Shown piece by piece: positions 22,517 through 33,005 of a stretch of 39,843 nt of DNA (positions are counted from its first letter, which is position 1; each line of letters begins with the position of its first letter). The notes below the pieces were generated by a model. The model worked only from the letters and a program-made list of their open reading frames with translations, did not search any database and was not told the DNA's origin. The stretch comes from Oscillatoriales cyanobacterium M59_W2019_021. GTDB lineage: Bacteria; Cyanobacteriota; Cyanobacteriia; Cyanobacteriales; Geitlerinemataceae. A program made the translations under genes and the position numbers. The stretch is taken from positions 1 through 39,843 of the forward strand of contig DVED01000148.1 of the NCBI GenBank assembly GCA_015295945.1. Direction: 5' to 3'.

Positions 22517-23620
22517 TTACCCAATCCGTTCGATCCACACTTTCATCGCTTCGATGCGCAGAGATTGAGCGCGAGTGCCGCAGTATTGACCGTTGGAGCA
22601 GGTAGGCGAGTCGCCGATATTTTGGATGTGAGCGACATAGCAAACCCGGTAGTTTGCCGCTTCCGGACCGCCGATGCGAATGGCAAAACCTTCCAGTCGC
22701 CGGTTTTCGCCGCGAGTGCCGACGAACTGACCGGAAGTCACCCACGGGGTATCGCCCACTCCGGCGAGGTGCGCCATATATTCGAGTTGCAAGCCGGGAA
22801 GGGGGGTTGCCAAACTCATTTGGAAGCCTTCGATGCCTTTAGCTTGACCGCGAGTTCCGGCAAATTCGCTGGCGCCGAATTCGCGATCGCCCATCCCTTC
22901 GATATGGACGACAATCTTGAGTGGGAGGGCAGAAGCCGAGGGGGTTTTGCCCGTTTTCGGCAGCGAGGTGGTTTCTAACCCCAAGCTTTTCGCTCCAAAA
23001 ACGATCGGCGGTTCGGCGGTAACTTGGGGAGCCGTTGGGGGTGCAACGTTGCCCCAAATAAAAGTATCGATGTTTTGGGGGGACGCAGCCGCTGCGGGGG
23101 AAGGAGGGCTAGATGGGGCTTTCAAGGTTAATTTACCTCGGGAGGCGGCGATCGCTATCGGCTGACCCAGGGATTGGCTCACCGCTTCCGTCAGGCGCAC
23201 CCACTCGGTATCCTGAAGTTGGTTGCCGCGATCGATCAAGGTCAGCAGTACCGCCACCGGATGCCGACCTTCCACCAAACTCTTCACGTCAGGAGGCAAG
23301 TAAGCTTCGGGCGTGTTGAGGATTTTCGTCCGAAAGGCTCGCACTTGCTCTTGATATCCCGTCAACGCCTCGAAATTGGGCTGTTCGACATGGGTCAGCG
23401 ATAAGAAGCGATCGAGAATGCGTACGGCTTTGTCCCGCATGGGGGTGGAGGATGACGATGCCGAACTCGCCAGCGTTTGCAATAAGCTTTTCAAATCTTT
23501 CAGGGAACTTTGCTCGCCAATGGCAGGCAAGGGAGATAGATTCGAGGCGGCTGCCAGTTCGATGATTTGCATTTGCAGAGTGTTGAGTTGTTGCAGCAGC
23601 GCTTGCGGATCGTATTTCAT
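22517..23620 (-). CDS. Protein with three C-terminal ChW-like repeats
   Basis: The 367-residue protein has a helical N-terminal half (residues 1-165, MKYDPQALLQQLNTLQMQII...) of unknown type and a Pro/Ala/Ser-rich linker (about 165-230). Three tandem repeats of about 45 residues follow (233-277, 278-322, 323-367), each with the pattern (Y/V)xxHIxxxGD...(S/E)xxFxGTRGxxxxIEGFxxxx. This matches the ChW (clostridial hydrophobic W) repeat, except that the hallmark Trp after the central Gly is Asp in all three. ChW proteins in clostridia are secreted adhesins or enzymes, but here no signal peptide is seen. The function is unknown. Confidence 0.72.
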   Translation of the reverse strand: MKYDPQALLQQLNTLQMQIIELAAASNLSPLPAIGEQSSLKDLKSLLQTLASSASSSSTPMRDKAVRILDRFLSLTHVEQPNFEALTGYQEQVRAFRTKILNTPEAYLPPDVKSLVEGRHPVAVLLTLIDRGNQLQDTEWVRLTEAVSQSLGQPIAIAASRGKLTLKAPSSPPSPAAAASPQNIDTFIWGNVAPPTAPQVTAEPPIVFGAKSLGLETTSLPKTGKTPSASALPLKIVVHIEGMGDREFGASEFAGTRGQAKGIEGFQMSLATPLPGLQLEYMAHLAGVGDTPWVTSGQFVGTRGENRRLEGFAIRIGGPEAANYRVCYVAHIQNIGDSPTCSNGQYCGTRAQSLRIEAMKVWIERIG

Positions 23621-24076: not shown

Positions 24077-27000
24077 ATGTCCGAGGAATCAGCCACTTTC
24101 CAGCCAAATCGATCGATTCCCATCGATCCTGCCGTGACGATCTCCAAGGGAGCGACCGTCCGGCAAGCGATCGATCTGATGTACCGACGGCAGACGAGCT
24201 ACCTGGCGGTGGTGGACGGCTCTCGGTGGGTGGGGATGTTTGTCGAAGGCGATGCCATCCGGATCGTGGCGTTGGGGCAATCCTTAGACGAAATGTCCGT
24301 CGCCCGCGCCATCTCTGCCGATCCCGTCGCTCTGCGAGTGGGCGATCGTTTCCTCAATCTGGCGGACGCCAACTCCCCATGTCATCTCCCACCGGAGTTG
24401 TATTCGGCTGCCCTTCAGTTGTGTCGGGAGCATTCCCTGCGCCATTTGCCCTTAATCGACGAACGAGGCAATCTGTTAGGCGTTCTCGATGATCGATCGT
24501 TGTGGTTGGAGAAGGTCAATCTCCCGGTTATCGAAGAGGTGCGAGACAATTGGAAAGATCGGGTCGTGCCTGTGCCTCCAATCGAAATCCAATGGCAGAC
24601 CTCCCCTCGGCATTGGCGGGCGATCTTTGCCGCACTGCACGATTGGGTGCTGGCAATCGATGCGGGACGAAAAACCATTCGCGTCTTGCCCACGCAACAT
24701 CTCCTCAGTCAGGATGCCAGCGATCTTGCCCGAATTACCGCCACTTACTATCGCTTTTTTGACAGTGCCGCCGAGGAATTTTGGCATCCCGTTCGCCAAG
24801 CGCTCTCCACCCAGCAACGGGTTGATTTCGAGTATGTCGTCACCTTGGGCGATCGATCGACGGGCATGGCGGCAAGTATTTCGCCCCTGTCGGCAACGGA
24901 AGTGGTGTGGGTAGCGCGGGATATCAGCGATCGTCTGGGATCGGAAATGCTGCTGCACAATCTTGCCACAGAATTGGAAGTGCAATTGGACGAAAGAACC
25001 GCCCAACTCCACGAAGCCGAGAGCTTTTTGCTGGAAGAAATTCGCGATCGTCACACTTCCGAAGAAGACCTCAAGACGGCCAAAGATCGACTGCAAGCCG
25101 TCATCGACGCCGTTCCCGGCTTCGTTTCTTGGATCGGCAAAGACAACGAAAACGGGGACATCTCCCCCGATTTGCGATATCTAGGCGTCAATCACCATTT
25201 AGCCAGCAGTTTCGGGTTGTCCCCCCAAGATTTTGTCGGTCAACGGGTCGGCTTTCTCGAAGGTCCGTCGGAATTTACCGAGTTTCTGGTGCAATTCATG
25301 TCTCAAGACTTGCAAGCGGATTCTCGCGTCGTCGATTTGATGTTGAAGGGCAAACCGTGCAGTTACTTGATCGCCGTGCAGAAATACCAGCAAAATCGGG
25401 CAGCCGTGTCGGTGGGCATCGATATTACCGATCGCAAAAAAGCCGAAGAGTCTCTGCGCTATCAACTCGCCTTTGAAAAGTTGGTGATGAGCATTTCTAC
25501 GGATTTTATCAACTTGAAATCCGAAGACAGCGATGGCGGCATTCGGCGAGCGCTTCAGAGTATCGGCGAGTTTTGCGGGGTGGATTACAGTTACGTATTT
25601 CTGTTCGACGACGACGGTATCGCCTTGAATTCGACTCACGAGTGGGTGATGCCGGGACTGGACGATCGTCTAGTTCCCCTGCGCGATCGCCTGCAAGCGA
25701 TCTTACCCGAAGCTTTAGGTAGACTCAAACTCGGCGAAGCCCTCTGCCTCCAGGGTCGCGATCTCGCCTCGGCAGACGAGTCGGAAATGGCAGTCGCTTC
25801 TCTGGTTGCCGTTCCCATGACTTATCGGGGATACGTAATGGGGTTTACGGGGTTGAGTGCGGTGCGCGCTCCCAAAACCTGGTCTTCCAGTCAAATGAGC
25901 TTGTTGCGCATCGTCTCCGAACTGTTTACGAGTACCTTGCAGCGCCAAAATGCCGAACGGGAATTGCGGCAAAGCGAGCGCAAATTCCGGGCAATTTTCG
26001 ATCAAGCCTTTCAGTTTGTCGCCTTGCTACAGCCTGATGGCACGACCATCGAAATCAACCAAACCGCTCTGGATTTCTTGGGTTTGACCCTGGATGCGGT
26101 GGCGGGCAAACCGTTCTGGCAGACGGGATGGTGGCGGGGGGCGACGGATGTGGGACAGCAAATGAAATGGGCGATCGATCGCGCCCTCCTCGATCGACTG
26201 GTACGCTGCGAAGTGGAAGTGACCGGAACCGACGATCGCCGTCTCACCCTGGATTTTTCCCTCAAACCCGTGAAAGACGAAACGGGACGAGTGGTGTTGC
26301 TGATTGCCGAGGGACGGGACGTCACCGAGCGACAACTCGCCCAGCAGCGATTGCAACTGGCTTACCAACATACCCAATTACTCTCGGAAGTGACGCTAAA
26401 AATTCGCCAATCGTTGAAGTTGGACGATATTTTACAAACCTCGGTGGAAGAAGTCCAGAACATTTTGGGGGCGTCGCGGGTGTCGATCTTGCGCCTGGGA
26501 TCTCCGTCTGGGGGGGCGATCGTCAAAGAAGCCGTATTACCGGGTTATACGTCCCTACAAGGGCGATCGATCTCCGATCCGTACTTTTGGTGCGACAATC
26601 CCCTCGCCAGCCACGTCGGGCAACTCAGCGCTATTACCGACGTGGGGGATTGGGAACACCTCCAACACTACGACGTTCGGGCGCGATTGGTCGTCCCCAT
26701 TTTTATTTCGCGTACCGGACTGCCTCGCGATCGTCCCAGCACGCCATCGGAGGCATCCCCCTTATTATGGGGCTATTCCATCGCCCATCAGTGCGATCGA
26801 CCCCGGCAGTGGACGGAGTTCGAGATCGACTTGTTAGGGCAGCTCGCCGACCAACTGGGCATCGCCATCACCCACGCCCAACTCCTGGACAATCTCGAAG
26901 AAATCGTCGCCCAGCGCACGGCAGAACTGCGGTCTGCCAATCAAAATTTACAGCAAGAAATTCGCGATCGCCGCCGCGCCGAAGACGCCTTGCGACGCAG

Positions 27001-28117
27001 CGAACAACAATTGCGCCTGACTGCCGACGCCTTACCGGTTCTCATTTCCTACGTCGATTCCCAGCAATACTATCGCTTCAACAATCGCGCCTACGAACAC
27101 TGGCTGGGCAAACCCCTCTCGGCAATTACCGGACACCACCTACGAGAAGTCCTCGGCGAAGAAGCTTACCGATTGTGTCAGCCTTACGTGGAAACAGCAC
27201 TCTCCGGAGATCGGGTCAGTTACGAAGTGCAATTCCCAGAAACGAACGGAACCCGTCGCTATGTCAGTATCACCTATATTCCCGATGTGGGCGAGTTGGG
27301 GGAAGTCAAAGGGTATTTTGGGGTGGCGATCGATATCAGCGATCGCAAAGCTGTAGAGCAGATGAAAGACGAGTTTCTGTCCGTTGCCAGCCACGAACTG
27401 CGGACGCCGCTGACCTCGATTCGCGGTTCTTTGGGATTGCTGGCAACGGGACGCCTGGGGTCGCTGTCGCTCAAAGGTCAGCGGATGTTAGAAATTGCCC
27501 GCGATAACACCGAACGCCTCTGCCGTTTGGTAGACGATATCCTCGACTTGCAGCGGATGGAATTGGGAGAAGCGCAAACGATCCAACAGCGTTACAATGC
27601 CGTGGAATCGGTCGTGCAGGCGATCGAAGCCATGCAGTCGATGGCAGATGCGGCAGGCATCGAATTGTGGGTGCAGTTGGAGGGTCGATCGTTTTGTCCG
27701 AAACATCCCCAACACCGATCGCAGCTTCTGTCTCGATACTCGTTTCTCATTGATGCCGATCCTGATCGCATTTTGCAAACCCTGACCAATTTAATCAGCA
27801 ATGCGATTAAGTTTTCTCCCGCGAAAACGACGGTTTGGGTGTCCCTGACCCGGCAAAACCGCACAGTTTGCTTCCAAGTTCGCGATCGCGGACGCGGGAT
27901 CCCCCCCGACAAACTCGAGAGTATTTTCGGTCGGTTTCAGCAAGTCGATGCCTCGGATTCCCGGCAAAAAGGCGGGACGGGACTGGGTTTGGCAATTTGC
28001 CGCCAGATTGTCGGACAGCACGGCGGCTCGATTTGGGCGGAAAGTATTTTGGGGGAAGGCAGTACGTTTTACTTGACGCTACCAGAGGCGGGGGCAGGCG
28101 ACGCCGGTAATGGGTAA
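24077..28117 (+). CDS. Multi-domain sensor histidine kinase (CBS-PAS-PAS-GAF-PAS-GAF-PAS-HisKA-HATPase)
   Basis: The 1346-residue soluble kinase has: a CBS pair (1-160), PAS (about 180-285), coiled coil (292-330), PAS (335-455), GAF (461-620), PAS (630-755), a phytochrome/cyanobacteriochrome-like GAF (764-925), coiled coil, PAS (975-1095), HisKA with the phospho-acceptor H1106 in SVASHELRTPLTSIRGSL, and HATPase with N box NLISNAIKFSP (N1238, N1242), DRGRGIPPD and GGTGLGLAI. The second GAF has VRARLVVPIFI and LLWGYSIAHQCDRPRQW, but no Cys at the usual bilin-attachment place (DVGDWEHLQHYDV), so covalent bilin binding is unlikely. No membrane segments. A response regulator lies 289 nt downstream. 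The last codons (AGNG) lie in a GGTAATGGGTAATGGG repeat. Confidence 0.93.
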   Translation: MSEESATFQPNRSIPIDPAVTISKGATVRQAIDLMYRRQTSYLAVVDGSRWVGMFVEGDAIRIVALGQSLDEMSVARAISADPVALRVGDRFLNLADANSPCHLPPELYSAALQLCREHSLRHLPLIDERGNLLGVLDDRSLWLEKVNLPVIEEVRDNWKDRVVPVPPIEIQWQTSPRHWRAIFAALHDWVLAIDAGRKTIRVLPTQHLLSQDASDLARITATYYRFFDSAAEEFWHPVRQALSTQQRVDFEYVVTLGDRSTGMAASISPLSATEVVWVARDISDRLGSEMLLHNLATELEVQLDERTAQLHEAESFLLEEIRDRHTSEEDLKTAKDRLQAVIDAVPGFVSWIGKDNENGDISPDLRYLGVNHHLASSFGLSPQDFVGQRVGFLEGPSEFTEFLVQFMSQDLQADSRVVDLMLKGKPCSYLIAVQKYQQNRAAVSVGIDITDRKKAEESLRYQLAFEKLVMSISTDFINLKSEDSDGGIRRALQSIGEFCGVDYSYVFLFDDDGIALNSTHEWVMPGLDDRLVPLRDRLQAILPEALGRLKLGEALCLQGRDLASADESEMAVASLVAVPMTYRGYVMGFTGLSAVRAPKTWSSSQMSLLRIVSELFTSTLQRQNAERELRQSERKFRAIFDQAFQFVALLQPDGTTIEINQTALDFLGLTLDAVAGKPFWQTGWWRGATDVGQQMKWAIDRALLDRLVRCEVEVTGTDDRRLTLDFSLKPVKDETGRVVLLIAEGRDVTERQLAQQRLQLAYQHTQLLSEVTLKIRQSLKLDDILQTSVEEVQNILGASRVSILRLGSPSGGAIVKEAVLPGYTSLQGRSISDPYFWCDNPLASHVGQLSAITDVGDWEHLQHYDVRARLVVPIFISRTGLPRDRPSTPSEASPLLWGYSIAHQCDRPRQWTEFEIDLLGQLADQLGIAITHAQLLDNLEEIVAQRTAELRSANQNLQQEIRDRRRAEDALRRSEQQLRLTADALPVLISYVDSQQYYRFNNRAYEHWLGKPLSAITGHHLREVLGEEAYRLCQPYVETALSGDRVSYEVQFPETNGTRRYVSITYIPDVGELGEVKGYFGVAIDISDRKAVEQMKDEFLSVASHELRTPLTSIRGSLGLLATGRLGSLSLKGQRMLEIARDNTERLCRLVDDILDLQRMELGEAQTIQQRYNAVESVVQAIEAMQSMADAAGIELWVQLEGRSFCPKHPQHRSQLLSRYSFLIDADPDRILQTLTNLISNAIKFSPAKTTVWVSLTRQNRTVCFQVRDRGRGIPPDKLESIFGRFQQVDASDSRQKGGTGLGLAICRQIVGQHGGSIWAESILGEGSTFYLTLPEAGAGDAGNG

Positions 28118-28406
28118 TGGGTATCATGGTGGAGAGCGATGACCCTAGCCATTCGCTCGGCAAGTCTGGCAATTCTTTTTTGTCACGTCGGCTGACTTCC
28201 AGTACAATAAAACCTAGATTACACGATCTTTTACAAGACGAGAATCCGAGTCGATCGGCAAGCCTAACCTAAAATTAGATGGCTGGTCTTTGACATGATT
28301 GAGTCCAGAAGTTCTAGTCGGGTTAAGATAAAAATTTTAGTAGGTCTGGATTTTAATTTTATGAACGCAATGTTTGAGTTAAAAAGCAAAATTTCTATCT
28401 GTTGTT

Positions 28407-28784
28407 ATGACAAAAAAAATATTAGTCATTGATGATGAATCCGATATTCGAGAAGTCGCGAAACTTTGTCTCGAAATTAATAGTAACTGGGAAGTCATCA
28501 CGGCGGACTCTGGAGAAAGTGGGGTAGCGGCTGCCACGACCGAACAGCCTGACGCAATTTTACTCGATGTGATGATGCCCGATATGGATGGGTTGGCAAC
28601 TTTGACGCGACTACAAAACGATGGAAACACGCAAGATATTCCCGTCATTCTCCTCACGGCGAAAGTGCAAGCCACTCAAGAATATCGCTATCAAAATTTA
28701 CGAATTGCTGCCGTTTTGGCAAAGCCATTCGATCCGGTGAATTTAGCCGCCCAAATCGCTCAGATTTTGAATTGGAAACTTTGA
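28407..28784 (+). CDS. Single-domain response regulator (CheY-like)
   Basis: The 125-residue receiver domain has no output domain. The acidic pair is D9-D10 (VIDDESDIR), the phospho-acceptor is D54 (ILLDVMMPDMDG), the Thr is in ILLTAK, and the conserved Lys is in LAKPFDP. It probably receives phosphate from the upstream sensor kinase on the same strand, and being without a DNA-binding part it would act through protein contacts. The gap of 289 nt, A/T-rich just before the start, suggests its own promoter. Translation start ATG at 28407 follows TCTGTTGTT without a strong ribosome-binding site. Confidence 0.93.
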   Translation: MTKKILVIDDESDIREVAKLCLEINSNWEVITADSGESGVAAATTEQPDAILLDVMMPDMDGLATLTRLQNDGNTQDIPVILLTAKVQATQEYRYQNLRIAAVLAKPFDPVNLAAQIAQILNWKL

Positions 28785-29036: not shown

Positions 29037-31127
29037 TTACTCAAATCCAGACAGATTCCAAACTCCGATCGACCCGTCTCGCTCTCCCGAAATTAACATT
29101 TTTCCATCGGGACTAAAGGCGATCGCGCTGATAAAACGGGCGGGTTCTTCGTAAAGTAAATTTCCCGTTTCCACTTCCCACAATCGCAGGTTTCCCTTTT
29201 CCGTTTCCGTACTGCTTGCCAACCATTTGCCATCGGCACTCACGGCAATTGCCGAAATTTTGCGAGAGTTATCTTTCTCCAAGGTGCGGATGGCTTTTCC
29301 CGTTTGCGCGTCCCAGATTTCGATCGCCGTATCGGCGGTGGCGAGGATTTGACCGTCGGCACTGGTGGCAATCAGGCGATCGCCTTTTACCTGCGGCAAT
29401 GCCACCGATTCCCCCGTCGTCGCGTTCCACCAGACCAGTTGTCCCTCGAGACGACCGACCAGGAGGGTCGAATTGTGGGGACGAGTGGAGATTGCCGGAA
29501 AGCGATCGAAGGCAATTTCGCTGCGATCAAGCAACTCACCACTGCTGACGTTCCAAGTATGAATCGCAGTTTTCGTACTGCCGACAATCTGTTGACCGTC
29601 GGCACTGAATGCCAAGAACCCCACCCCCGCGCGATCGATCGATCGATTGAGTTTCTGAGTCGGTAAGTGCCACAGTTTCGTCGTGCCATCTTTACTGCTG
29701 GTGGCAACGGACTGGTTATCTGGCGCAACCGCGATCGCGCGCACGAGATCGCCGTGTCCCGGCAATTGCGCGATCGCCGTTAGCGTCGGTTCGGTTGCAA
29801 CGGGTATTGTCGAAATTGCCGCGACTTCCGGTTGTGCGGGAGAAGTTCTCGAGGCGGAAACCGAAGCCGAACGCGCCGACCAATACACCACACCCGCCAA
29901 TACTGCCGCCAACACCACACTCCCAGCTAACAGATCGTTTTTGCACTGCGCCACTTGACTCCAAAAGCCGCCGACGGAGTAGTTGGGAAGGGTTTGGTAA
30001 TGGATAGGGGGAAAAGTGGCAACGGTAGAACGGACGGGAACGGCGATCGGTACTCGGGGGGGACGCGGCAGCGGTTGAGGCGGCGGGGTGCGAAAGCGAT
30101 CGACATCTTCTTTAGTCGGGAAGGGATCGCGACCTCCCAACAGTTGCGTGCGATCGCACCACGGACAGCGCGTTTGGCGGACATTGTAGCGATGGTGGGG
30201 ATTTTTCTGGCAGATCACCAATTCCTGTTCCGCCGCTTCCAACGCTTGCACCCACGTTTGTGCGTCGGGACGCTGGCTGGGATCGAGGTATCCGGTATCG
30301 AAACACTGCAAAAACAATCGCCGCAACTCCGGGTATAAAATTCTCCCATCGGGAGCGATCGGCGTGGGACGGTAAGGAACCCGCCGACTGCCGTAGGGGA
30401 AATGTCCGGCAGCAATTCTCGCTTCGATCGACGGCGGATCTCCCACCCCGGTATACACCCCCGCAAACGGGTGCGTCCCTTCCATCAAGATTTGGAAAAT
30501 CAACACCGCTAACCCGAAGCGATCCTGTTCCGGCATCCGTTGGTAATGGCGCAAGGTTTTCCCCTGCAACTCCGGCGGGGTAAATTCCGGTTTGCCGACG
30601 GGACAGGGATAAATCCGGTCTCCCACGCGCACTTGAAACGAATCAGTATCCACCAGCGTTACCAACGCCGTCTGAGAGACCAAAATATTCGACTCGTTGA
30701 CATCGCCGATGACGTATCCTCCAGCGTGCAAACTGCTAACTGCCGCCGCCAAATTTCGCGCCGTTCGATGCAGGTAGAGATAATTAAAAAACGGCGTGCG
30801 ATCGCGCCGCGTTTTGGGATTGTAAAAATCGTGAAGGGGACGAACTTGAGAAACTTTCGGCATCAAGAATCCGATCGCTTTCCCCCGATTTTCCAATAAA
30901 TCCACGGGCCAGGCGATGGAGACGTGTCCTTCTGCCGCACTCGGGTCTTCTGGCGGATGCGCCACCATTGCCGCTAACTTCTCCCCCATTTCCGCCGTCG
31001 GGTGGTGATAAATCTTCGCTACCCAAGACGCATGTTCGGCAACCGCGTAAATTTTACCCTCTCCGCCGCCGCCTAACTCGGTGTTGAGGGTTACAAGTTG
31101 TCCGTTCGATCGTCGTCGCACCTGCAT
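29037..31127 (-). CDS. YegI-type Ser/Thr kinase with zinc-knuckle, membrane helix and WD40 repeats
   Basis: The 696-residue protein opens with a protein kinase domain (about 10-300). It has a glycine loop GGGGEGKIYAV, ATP-anchoring K38 (WVAKIYH), catalytic loop VIGDVNESNIL (I140-G141-D142 instead of HRD, N147), D160-T-D162 in place of DFG, and PEFTPPELQG. A Cys/His cluster follows (C306, H311/H312, C321, C324 in CPWC), probably binding zinc, then a Pro-rich linker, one membrane helix (about 399-418) and six WD40-like repeats (about 450-696). The variant motifs match the kinase of TerY-P/YegI triads. It is the last gene after the PP2C and vWA genes. The WD40 part would lie on the other side of the membrane from the kinase. 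Confidence 0.88.
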   Translation of the reverse strand: MQVRRRSNGQLVTLNTELGGGGEGKIYAVAEHASWVAKIYHHPTAEMGEKLAAMVAHPPEDPSAAEGHVSIAWPVDLLENRGKAIGFLMPKVSQVRPLHDFYNPKTRRDRTPFFNYLYLHRTARNLAAAVSSLHAGGYVIGDVNESNILVSQTALVTLVDTDSFQVRVGDRIYPCPVGKPEFTPPELQGKTLRHYQRMPEQDRFGLAVLIFQILMEGTHPFAGVYTGVGDPPSIEARIAAGHFPYGSRRVPYRPTPIAPDGRILYPELRRLFLQCFDTGYLDPSQRPDAQTWVQALEAAEQELVICQKNPHHRYNVRQTRCPWCDRTQLLGGRDPFPTKEDVDRFRTPPPQPLPRPPRVPIAVPVRSTVATFPPIHYQTLPNYSVGGFWSQVAQCKNDLLAGSVVLAAVLAGVVYWSARSASVSASRTSPAQPEVAAISTIPVATEPTLTAIAQLPGHGDLVRAIAVAPDNQSVATSSKDGTTKLWHLPTQKLNRSIDRAGVGFLAFSADGQQIVGSTKTAIHTWNVSSGELLDRSEIAFDRFPAISTRPHNSTLLVGRLEGQLVWWNATTGESVALPQVKGDRLIATSADGQILATADTAIEIWDAQTGKAIRTLEKDNSRKISAIAVSADGKWLASSTETEKGNLRLWEVETGNLLYEEPARFISAIAFSPDGKMLISGERDGSIGVWNLSGFE

Positions 31128-31414
31128 GGCAGTTGGGGATTACAGAGGAATTTAACGGAGAGTCTGGAAAAATAACCGCTTTATAAAGGCAGAAGACAGA
31201 AGGGAGAAGAAAAAAGATCGATCGGGTGAGGATTTCAGTATTTGCTGTTGTCCTAGCACTCCTGGCTACGGCTACACCCAGTGGGTCTATTGGACGGCAA
31301 TCTCAGGTTGAGGACGCAAAGCTCGATCGGTAACAGCCCCTTCGGCAACGCAATTTATCTCTATAATATTATCCCATCCTCTCTGGAGAGCCGTTTTTGT
31401 TAGTTGTACTGACG

Positions 31415-32275
31415 TTATTTAAGCGTTGCTAACAACAAAGTTAAATCGTCGTCGGTGCGTTGGGTGACGCGAGGAGACATTAAAAAGTTTTCCAGTTCTG
31501 CCTGTGCGTCGATTTCGTCGATATCGTCTTGGGAAATGAAGCGGAATAACGGCGAAAAGAACGGGGGATGGGGTTTTGCCGTCGGCATTTCCAAAGCTAA
31601 CAATTGTAAGCCGTCGGAAAAGATTGCTAAGTGAGTCGGACTGCCTTTCCAAAATAAGCATTGCGCTGTTTCCAAGGCATTGGGCGAGACGAGAAAGGTG
31701 GTTTCGTTGATGTATTCCCCGGTTTGCGGCGCGGTTAGGGCGATCGCCCGTTCCCCTTCTTCCATCACCACTGCCCCATCCCCAACCTGTGTCGCCACCA
31801 CCCACTCCGCCGTTGCCACTACTACGATTAACGTACTCGCTAACTCCCGCACCGAACTTTGTCGAGTCTGAGCTTCCAGTTCCACCGCTTCTCGGGCAGC
31901 TTCTAAGGCGTAAAAAATCGGCTTGGGTAAGTGAGAAGAACGCACTCCCTCGGATTCCGGGATGTCCGGATCGGGTTCTACGGTTTCGGTGGATTGCGCG
32001 GCATCGAAAGCAGCGGGAAGCGATCGCCAATCCGCTTGAGCTAGGCACTCCACTGCCGTTTTCACCGCCACCTGCGCCCCCACTTCCCCAAACGTTGCCG
32101 AACCCGCCCCATCCGCCACTGCCGCAATCAGCACGCCTTCCGGGGTAATCTGCCAACCGTGGGCATCTTGACAGGGCTGCGATCGCTTTTGGTGACTGGT
32201 TCCGCACACCGAAGCCGCCACCACGCGCCAGGTTGGGGGTTGGGGGTTGGGGGTTAGGGGTTGGTCATCGGTCAT
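31415..32275 (-). CDS. PP2C-family protein phosphatase (TerY-P/YegK type)
   Basis: The 286-residue Ser/Thr phosphatase has the metal-binding motifs QPCQDAHGWQ (D37), AAVADGAGSATFGEVGA (D55, G56), TQVGDGAVV and the final TDDDLTLLLATLK. The short, insert-free PP2C form with CGTSHQKRSQPCQDA near its N-terminus is the type found beside vWA and YegI-like kinases. It probably dephosphorylates the kinase or its targets. The ATG at 32275 and the next 14 codons are encoded by a GGGGGTTGGGGGTT repeat; a GTG at Val18 or Val19 just before ASVCGTSH may be the original start. The kinase gene follows after 287 nt. Confidence 0.9.
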   Translation of the reverse strand: MTDDQPLTPNPQPPTWRVVAASVCGTSHQKRSQPCQDAHGWQITPEGVLIAAVADGAGSATFGEVGAQVAVKTAVECLAQADWRSLPAAFDAAQSTETVEPDPDIPESEGVRSSHLPKPIFYALEAAREAVELEAQTRQSSVRELASTLIVVVATAEWVVATQVGDGAVVMEEGERAIALTAPQTGEYINETTFLVSPNALETAQCLFWKGSPTHLAIFSDGLQLLALEMPTAKPHPPFFSPLFRFISQDDIDEIDAQAELENFLMSPRVTQRTDDDLTLLLATLK

Positions 32276-32311
32276 GAAGTAATCAGTCAGAAGTAATAAG
32301 TTATGGACGAT
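32231..32311. repeat. Composite dispersed repeat, copy 5
   Basis: Three GGTTGGG words and GGTTAGGGGTTGGTCATCGGTC are followed by GTCAGAAGTAATAAGTTATGG. The words match copies 1, 3 and 4, and AAGTAATAAGT is also found at 10537-10554. It contains the PP2C start codon and lies in the gap between the vWA and PP2C genes. Confidence 0.72.
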
Positions 32312-32330
32312 GAGTGACTAGCGGCTAGCA

Positions 32331-33005
32331 TTACACCTCGCCCCATCCGGGTGGGGGGAGCGGCACTTGTTCGTCGGGTTTGGAGTTGGAAACGCGCTGC
32401 ATACTTGCCGACAACCATACGAACAATTCTCGGAAGTTTAACCCTTTGAGTTTCAACGGGGCGCGCACGGAAATTTCGCTCAACCTTTTCATGTTGGCAT
32501 TTTCTACCCCGACAGCAAAGAAGGCAACGCGCTTAGCGGTTTCGTCGTCGCGAATGCGATCGATCGCTCGTCGTACGGCTTCGTCAGATTCTCCTTGGGG
32601 TTCCCCGTCGGTAATCAGAAACACCCAGGGACGATAGTAGGTGACGCCATTATTGCGATACTGGAATTTGCGATCGGCAATCAGATCCAACGCTTGGTCG
32701 ATTCCCGTTCCCATACTCGTCATCCCTTGCGCCCGTAAAATCGGCGCTTCAAACCGATCGGCGGTGACGAAATCTTGAATCACTTTAACCTGAGAATCAA
32801 ACGAAACGATCGCCACTTCTACCCGCTTGCGAGCGAGATCGTCTTTGTTGAGTTCCTCGCAGAAGGTTTGCAATCCGGCGTTGAGTGCGTCGATAGGTGC
32901 GCCTCCCATGGAACCCGACGTATCCAACAACAGGACGCAGGGACAGCGGGGTTCCGGGTTTTCGGCAAATTCGACAGCTTCCTCTAATCTCAAAGGTTCT
33001 GGCAT
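32331..33005 (-). CDS. TerY-type von Willebrand factor A protein
   Basis: The 224-residue protein is essentially one vWA domain. It has a complete metal-ion-dependent adhesion site: DTSGSMGG (D28, S30, S32), the Thr in GMTSMGTGIDQAL, and the Asp of FLITDGEPQG. It belongs to the TerY/YegL group (family ending PLKLKGLNFRELFVWLSASM), which stands beside PP2C and kinase genes. vWA domains assemble protein complexes in a metal-dependent manner. It is the first gene of the minus-strand set vWA-PP2C-kinase, with 55 nt to the PP2C gene. No signal peptide is seen, so it should act in the cytoplasm. Confidence 0.92.
   Translation of the reverse strand: MPEPLRLEEAVEFAENPEPRCPCVLLLDTSGSMGGAPIDALNAGLQTFCEELNKDDLARKRVEVAIVSFDSQVKVIQDFVTADRFEAPILRAQGMTSMGTGIDQALDLIADRKFQYRNNGVTYYRPWVFLITDGEPQGESDEAVRRAIDRIRDDETAKRVAFFAVGVENANMKRLSEISVRAPLKLKGLNFRELFVWLSASMQRVSNSKPDEQVPLPPPGWGEV

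Follow-up and report, generated by a model that had tools for sequence, protein, structure and literature searches.

Among the closest described relatives of the locus analyzed here are the proteins of the Escherichia coli set YegL, PphC (YegK) and YegI, a vWA protein, a PP2C-type phosphatase and a kinase. YegI is described as a membrane-bound kinase that autophosphorylates on serine and is dephosphorylated by PphC in the account of Rajagopalan et al. given in PMC13232886. A vWA protein, a PP2C phosphatase and a kinase likewise make up the TerY-P triads of tellurite plasmids, of CoCoNuT systems and of an antiphage form; the TerY-P kinase carries a zinc ribbon or an OB fold (PMC11090510). YegI-type triads are widespread, and no signal or target was found for them in the literature searched. 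The stretch of DNA under study (39,843 nt, contig DVED01000148.1 of assembly GCA_015295945.1, Oscillatoriales cyanobacterium M59_W2019_021), in the following referred to as the window, harbors a triad of the YegI-PphC-YegL kind in a variant form that bears WD40. With moderate confidence, it is regarded as a receptor-type reversible Ser/Thr kinase switch of that kind, the six-bladed propeller of which would be located outside the cytoplasm. The three genes are encoded on the minus strand in the order vWA, PP2C and kinase-WD40, and were recovered as open reading frames at the coordinates and on the strand given in a first-pass annotation of the DNA, with active-site residues intact:

32331..33005, minus strand: gene of the vWA protein (224 aa, YegL-like)
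31415..32275, minus strand: gene of the PP2C Ser/Thr phosphatase (286 aa, PphC/YegK-like)
29037..31127, minus strand: gene of the YegI-type kinase with membrane helix and WD40 propeller (696 aa)
30213..31127, minus strand: kinase domain (residues 1-305; protein-kinase fold predicted, predicted template modelling score (pTM) 0.90)
30687..30710, minus strand: catalytic loop IGDVNESN (residues 140-147; D142, N147)
30642..30650, minus strand: DTD metal-binding motif, replacing DFG (residues 160-162; D160 and D162 invariant)
30156..30212, minus strand: Cys/His cluster C306-x5-H312-x8-C321-P-W-C324, a probable Zn site
29877..29933, minus strand: single transmembrane helix predicted from hydrophobicity (residues 399-417)
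29049..29786, minus strand: predicted six-bladed WD40 propeller without Cys (residues 448-693)

The vWA protein shares 56% amino acid identity with E. coli YegL (1e-72), the PP2C protein 34% with PphC/YegK (5e-41) and the kinase 37% with YegI (residues 7-324, 1e-61), the Zn cluster being located inside the latter alignment. These matches are beyond chance, and the three genes are assigned to the YegI-PphC-YegL branch and not to a Ter locus. The first-pass annotation had described the set as TerY-P/YegLKI-like; its recognition of a vWA-PP2C-kinase triad and its placement of the kinase in this group are in line with the matches obtained. The proteins are much closer to the E. coli set than to those of plasmid tellurite TerY-P (identity of about 28-30% for the vWA protein and about 24% for the kinase). 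Pfam matches were obtained for the vWA (VWA, 3.8e-15) and the PP2C protein (PP2C_2, 9.3e-51). All residues of the metal ion-dependent adhesion site (D28, S30, S32, T96 and D133) are kept in the one-domain vWA protein, as annotated, and are 97-100% conserved in 102 homologues; the same range was found for the metal-site residues of the PP2C (D37, D55, D166, D221, D276 and D277) in 119 homologues. Searches of solved structures from the vWA and PP2C sequences yielded no useful relative.

The kinase part alone matches Pfam Pkinase with 28.6 bits (1.2e-6), below the curated cut-off of 31.7. When the kinase-Zn part was modelled alone, a predicted local distance difference test score (pLDDT) of 89 was obtained in addition to the pTM listed above, and the predicted fold resembles protein kinases in a fold search (Z ~20). 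The variant motifs IGDVN...DTD and the Cys/His cluster are present as claimed, the window kinase containing a GGGGEG loop, K38, IGDVNESN, DTD (D160) and C306-H312-C321-C324. In a comparison of 22 sequences, which comprised two cyanobacterial clades and E. coli YegI, no variation was seen at G22 and E23 of the glycine loop, K38, D142, D160, D162, C306 and H312, and hardly any at N147, C321 and C324.

The distribution of the three proteins was surveyed in 244 genomes of the phylum (kinase threshold E below 1e-30). The kinase was found in 59 genomes, the vWA and the PP2C protein in 60 each and all three in 59; hence the full set is present in 59/59 kinase-bearing genomes, several of them with unlinked genes, which bears out the view of the three genes as a set. 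The Fisher p values for this co-occurrence (about 1e-54 or lower) ignore shared ancestry and are not to be taken literally. More telling is that the set is kept even where its genes are unlinked, which points to a functional set. The vWA-PP2C pair and the kinase are located on different contigs in one genus (g4; genomes G003, G006 and G008), and in G067, G078, G159 and G181 either the kinase is detached from the vWA and PP2C genes or no two of the three are together. Most members of the nearest family of the window retain the set.

The kinase-zinc core is retained across lineages, whereas what follows the Zn cluster varies from one lineage to another. WD40 behind one helix is found in the family of the window, in the Roseofilum group and in single loci such as L158 and L161 (Hormoscilla), whereas Nostoc relatives, Aliterella and Gloeocapsopsis have TPR behind one helix and Microcoleus, Okeania, Planktothrix and Trichodesmium a glycine-rich multi-helix membrane domain. 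Tails of other lineages are FGE-sulfatase (a domain with the older name DUF323), GUN4 or a PQQ-like propeller. In a kinase-domain tree (101 rows, quick method, long branches), the glycine-rich form constitutes one supported group, while WD40 is scattered and needs 8 changes, at least 7 of them forced by supported branches; such counts cannot separate gain from loss. A single conserved cyanobacterial subtype with WD40 fusion, as considered in the first-pass annotation, is rejected by this tree. Identity to the WD40 region of the window was also discarded as proof of one inherited fusion, amounting to about 32-41% for triad kinases and thus barely exceeding the about 30-36% of unrelated WD40 hits in the same genomes.

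A second YegI-type kinase, in which one helix is followed by a GUN4-like domain at the C-terminal end, is encoded elsewhere in the window genome (L022:4040-6721; G000 contig C89). No vWA or PP2C gene adjoins it, and a single PP2C of this kind and a single close vWA protein were found in the genome versus two kinases. It is well possible, if short of probable, that the conserved kinase-phosphatase-vWA core serves cyanobacteria as a plug-in receptor platform with repeatedly exchanged modules and that the WD40 and GUN4-like kinases of this genome share one PP2C-vWA pair. The module kinds exchanged are WD40 (putatively outside the membrane in some kinases and inside in others), TPR, the glycine-rich membrane domain, GUN4, FGE-sulfatase and the PQQ propeller. 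Orphan kinase paralogues were also noticed in other family members (L042-L046, L050 and L051). As a separate observation, two contigs labelled Candidatus Poribacteria (L173 and L175) contain clade-A triad kinases, one of which has an FGE-sulfatase tail; transfer or mis-binning are possible.

The one membrane helix and about six WD40-like repeats reported earlier were recovered in the kinase-WD40 protein (Pfam WD40, 1e-24). In the predicted full-length structure, residues 448-693 comprise 24 strands, i.e. six four-stranded blades, and a long helix (386-423) is located between disordered linkers; with a mean pLDDT of 77.5 and a pTM of 0.52, the relative domain placement in this model is meaningless. 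A fold search with the full-length model returned propellers alone, the WD40 part filling the list. In all 30 WD40 kinases measured in clade A, that of the window, kinase and propeller are separated by the helix. Their linkers average 86 aa and are positive in net charge; the stretch following the helix carries a slight negative charge and contains 1 Cys in total (none in 29/30). In the matched WD40 stretches of helix-bearing triad kinases, Cys accounts for 1/7121 residues, compared to 4/1549 (2.6 per 1000) in helix-less triad WD40, 27/2293 (11.8 per 1000) in unrelated WD40 domains without and 5/2760 in those with a hydrophobic stretch. The positive linker and the nearly Cys-free propeller favor an outside propeller in clade A without proving it, and a location outside the cytoplasm, on the side opposite to the kinase, is plausible. 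At a kinase identity of 65-75%, the post-helix region averages 37% identity where the tail is WD40 and 47% where it is TPR; such fast change fits the expectation for a receptor part that faces shifting demands, but relaxed constraint would look similar.

Several observations weigh against this topology. Charges around the window helix are not clearly biased, with +9/-6 in the linker and +2/-2 over the 30 residues that follow it. The scarcity of Cys carries little weight as evidence, since triad WD40 kinases without the helix contain little Cys as well and the sequences share ancestry. Scaffolding in the cytoplasm is the usual function of WD40 domains. Moreover, WD40 directly follows the Zn cluster in a second clade (clade B). 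With no helix in between, it is presumably cytoplasmic there, in which case the kinase family would not require WD40 to be outside.

According to the mechanism proposed for the switch, the kinase would be membrane-anchored with the kinase domain and the Zn cluster in the cytoplasm, followed by a linker rich in proline and positive charge, a single membrane helix and the WD40 propeller, which would serve as signal-receiving module in the periplasm or the thylakoid lumen. A protein or peptide ligand on the propeller would alter the state of the kinase (e.g. its pairing) and, by this, its autophosphorylation and the phosphorylation of cytoplasmic targets. The PP2C would reset both the kinase and its targets by dephosphorylation; these activities are proposed because of the homology to the E. 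coli proteins. The vWA protein might, via its metal site, dock or present the substrate or carry the output. This is the least supported step of the mechanism; vWA domains usually serve as docking partners in a metal-dependent manner. Alternatively, the propeller might act as a cytoplasmic scaffold gathering substrates or partners near the kinase, either with a helix that merely anchors the protein or with a propeller that stays inside. This would be in accordance with the WD40 position immediately behind the Zn cluster in clade B, with the sole membrane helix at the C-terminal end of the triad kinase of Trichormus variabilis, with usually intracellular modules (TPR, GUN4) on the same core elsewhere and with the neutral charges flanking the window helix. 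In clade A, however, the invariable separation of kinase and propeller by the helix, the positive linker before it and the nearly Cys-free region after it argue against the scaffold, which we consider rather unlikely.

A role in defence, with the switch responding to infection as in OB-fold TerY-P systems, would be in line with TerY-P-like triads with an OB-fold kinase reported to be antiphage (Gao et al. 2020, as cited in PMC11090510), with the protection of P. aeruginosa by TerY-P in one study (PMC10889362) and with related kinase-PP2C-vWA genes accompanying some conflict systems (PMC7159879). Such a role appears improbable for the window triad. PADLOC gave a weak TerY match for the vWA protein (E 0.022), as weak as that of E. 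coli YegL (0.032), and no match for the PP2C. No OB fold was seen in the Pfam scan or in the predicted structure, the C-terminal part of the kinase being the WD40 propeller. The scanned neighbors of the triad in the window are mostly housekeeping genes, and the set is kept by most of the nearest family, unlike patchy defence islands. A link of the triad to Ter was rejected as well, since TerD and the triad do not go together in relatives: of 13 related genomes, some have TerD alongside the triad and others TerD without it, and no TerD was found in the triad-bearing G003, G005, G007 and G015. The single TerD gene found lies on a different contig from the triad, which is flanked by glyS and a response regulator; as noted previously, no tellurite-resistance genes adjoin it. 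A divergent kinase domain that binds without phosphorylating is very improbable. The Pfam score below the family cut-off, DTD in place of the expected DFG and the inactivity of many kinases in related conflict systems (PMC7159879) would be compatible with such a scaffold, but K38, D142, N147 and D160 are present and conserved, a PP2C partner always accompanies the kinase, and YegI, which has the same DxD variant and Ser at the position of N147, is reported to autophosphorylate in the account cited above (PMC13232886).

At the window locus, the gap between the PP2C and the kinase gene amounts to 287 nt; the nearest relatives in which the triad is linked mostly have 13-22 nt there, and one has 100 nt. 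No convincing promoter or terminator was found in this gap, and the promoter and terminator scan yielded a lower number of sites than shuffled sequence did. Elsewhere in the window, 24077-28784 (plus strand) encodes a histidine kinase of 1346 aa that contains CBS, PAS and GAF domains and, behind it, a response regulator consisting of a single domain. At 22520-23620 (minus strand), a protein of 367 aa is encoded that contains ChW repeats (PF07538, clostridial hydrophobic W), a clostridia-linked name in a cyanobacterium.

The triad, its membrane form and, by annotation, even a WD40 version are already on record. The earlier statement that the WD40-linked form is uncharacterised holds in part: a WD40 kinase triad is annotated in RefSeq, and that one lacks the intervening helix. 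No description of the helix-separated WD40 form, of the repeated tail exchange on one core or of the retained unlinked sets came up in the searchable literature, the scope of which did not include the main subscription papers. If the proposed topology is true, it would be uncommon for a bacterial kinase to sense extracytoplasmic signals through a WD40 propeller. With a conserved core and natural sensor swaps, the signal sensed may be readable from the module, as for GUN4, a tetrapyrrole-binding fold, and domain exchange between kinases would offer a handle on what the core responds to. Furthermore, such kinases may be named just WD40 or TPR proteins, an annotation blind spot arising because the kinase scores under the Pfam cut-off.

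Compared to known systems, the TerY-P triads have the same three components, while the window proteins are distant from the plasmid-encoded ones in the identities given above and lack an OB fold. Cyanobacterial Hanks-type kinases (cbSTKII) carry WD40, TPR, GUN4 and DUF323 tails (PMC2176072), i.e. the same kinds of C-terminal modules as the window-type kinases; their kinase domains are canonical, whereas the window kinase scores below the Pfam cut-off and is accompanied by PP2C and vWA proteins. PkwA of Thermomonospora curvata, a named Ser/Thr kinase, provides a WD40 domain among the best solved-structure matches to that of the window, the comparison covering this domain. With the E. coli set, the window shares three homologous proteins in the same gene order; the kinases have the Zn cluster in common, and membrane segments are predicted in both. 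Differences are yegJ between pphC and yegI in E. coli K-12, and, in YegI, several hydrophobic stretches and a helix-hairpin-helix-like C-terminal region (by eye) where the window kinase has one helix and the WD40 propeller. A vWA-PP2C-WD40 kinase triad like that of the window is encoded on plasmid A of Trichormus variabilis ATCC 29413 (AVA_RS26675-26670-26665), where the RefSeq name "WD-40 repeat-containing serine/threonine protein kinase" is used. This kinase (L213:4980-7028) is about 40% identical to the window kinase but has the opposite layout, with no helix between kinase and WD40 and one at the C-terminus; its WD40 repeats, which contain Cys in contrast to the propeller of the window, should be located inside the cytoplasm.

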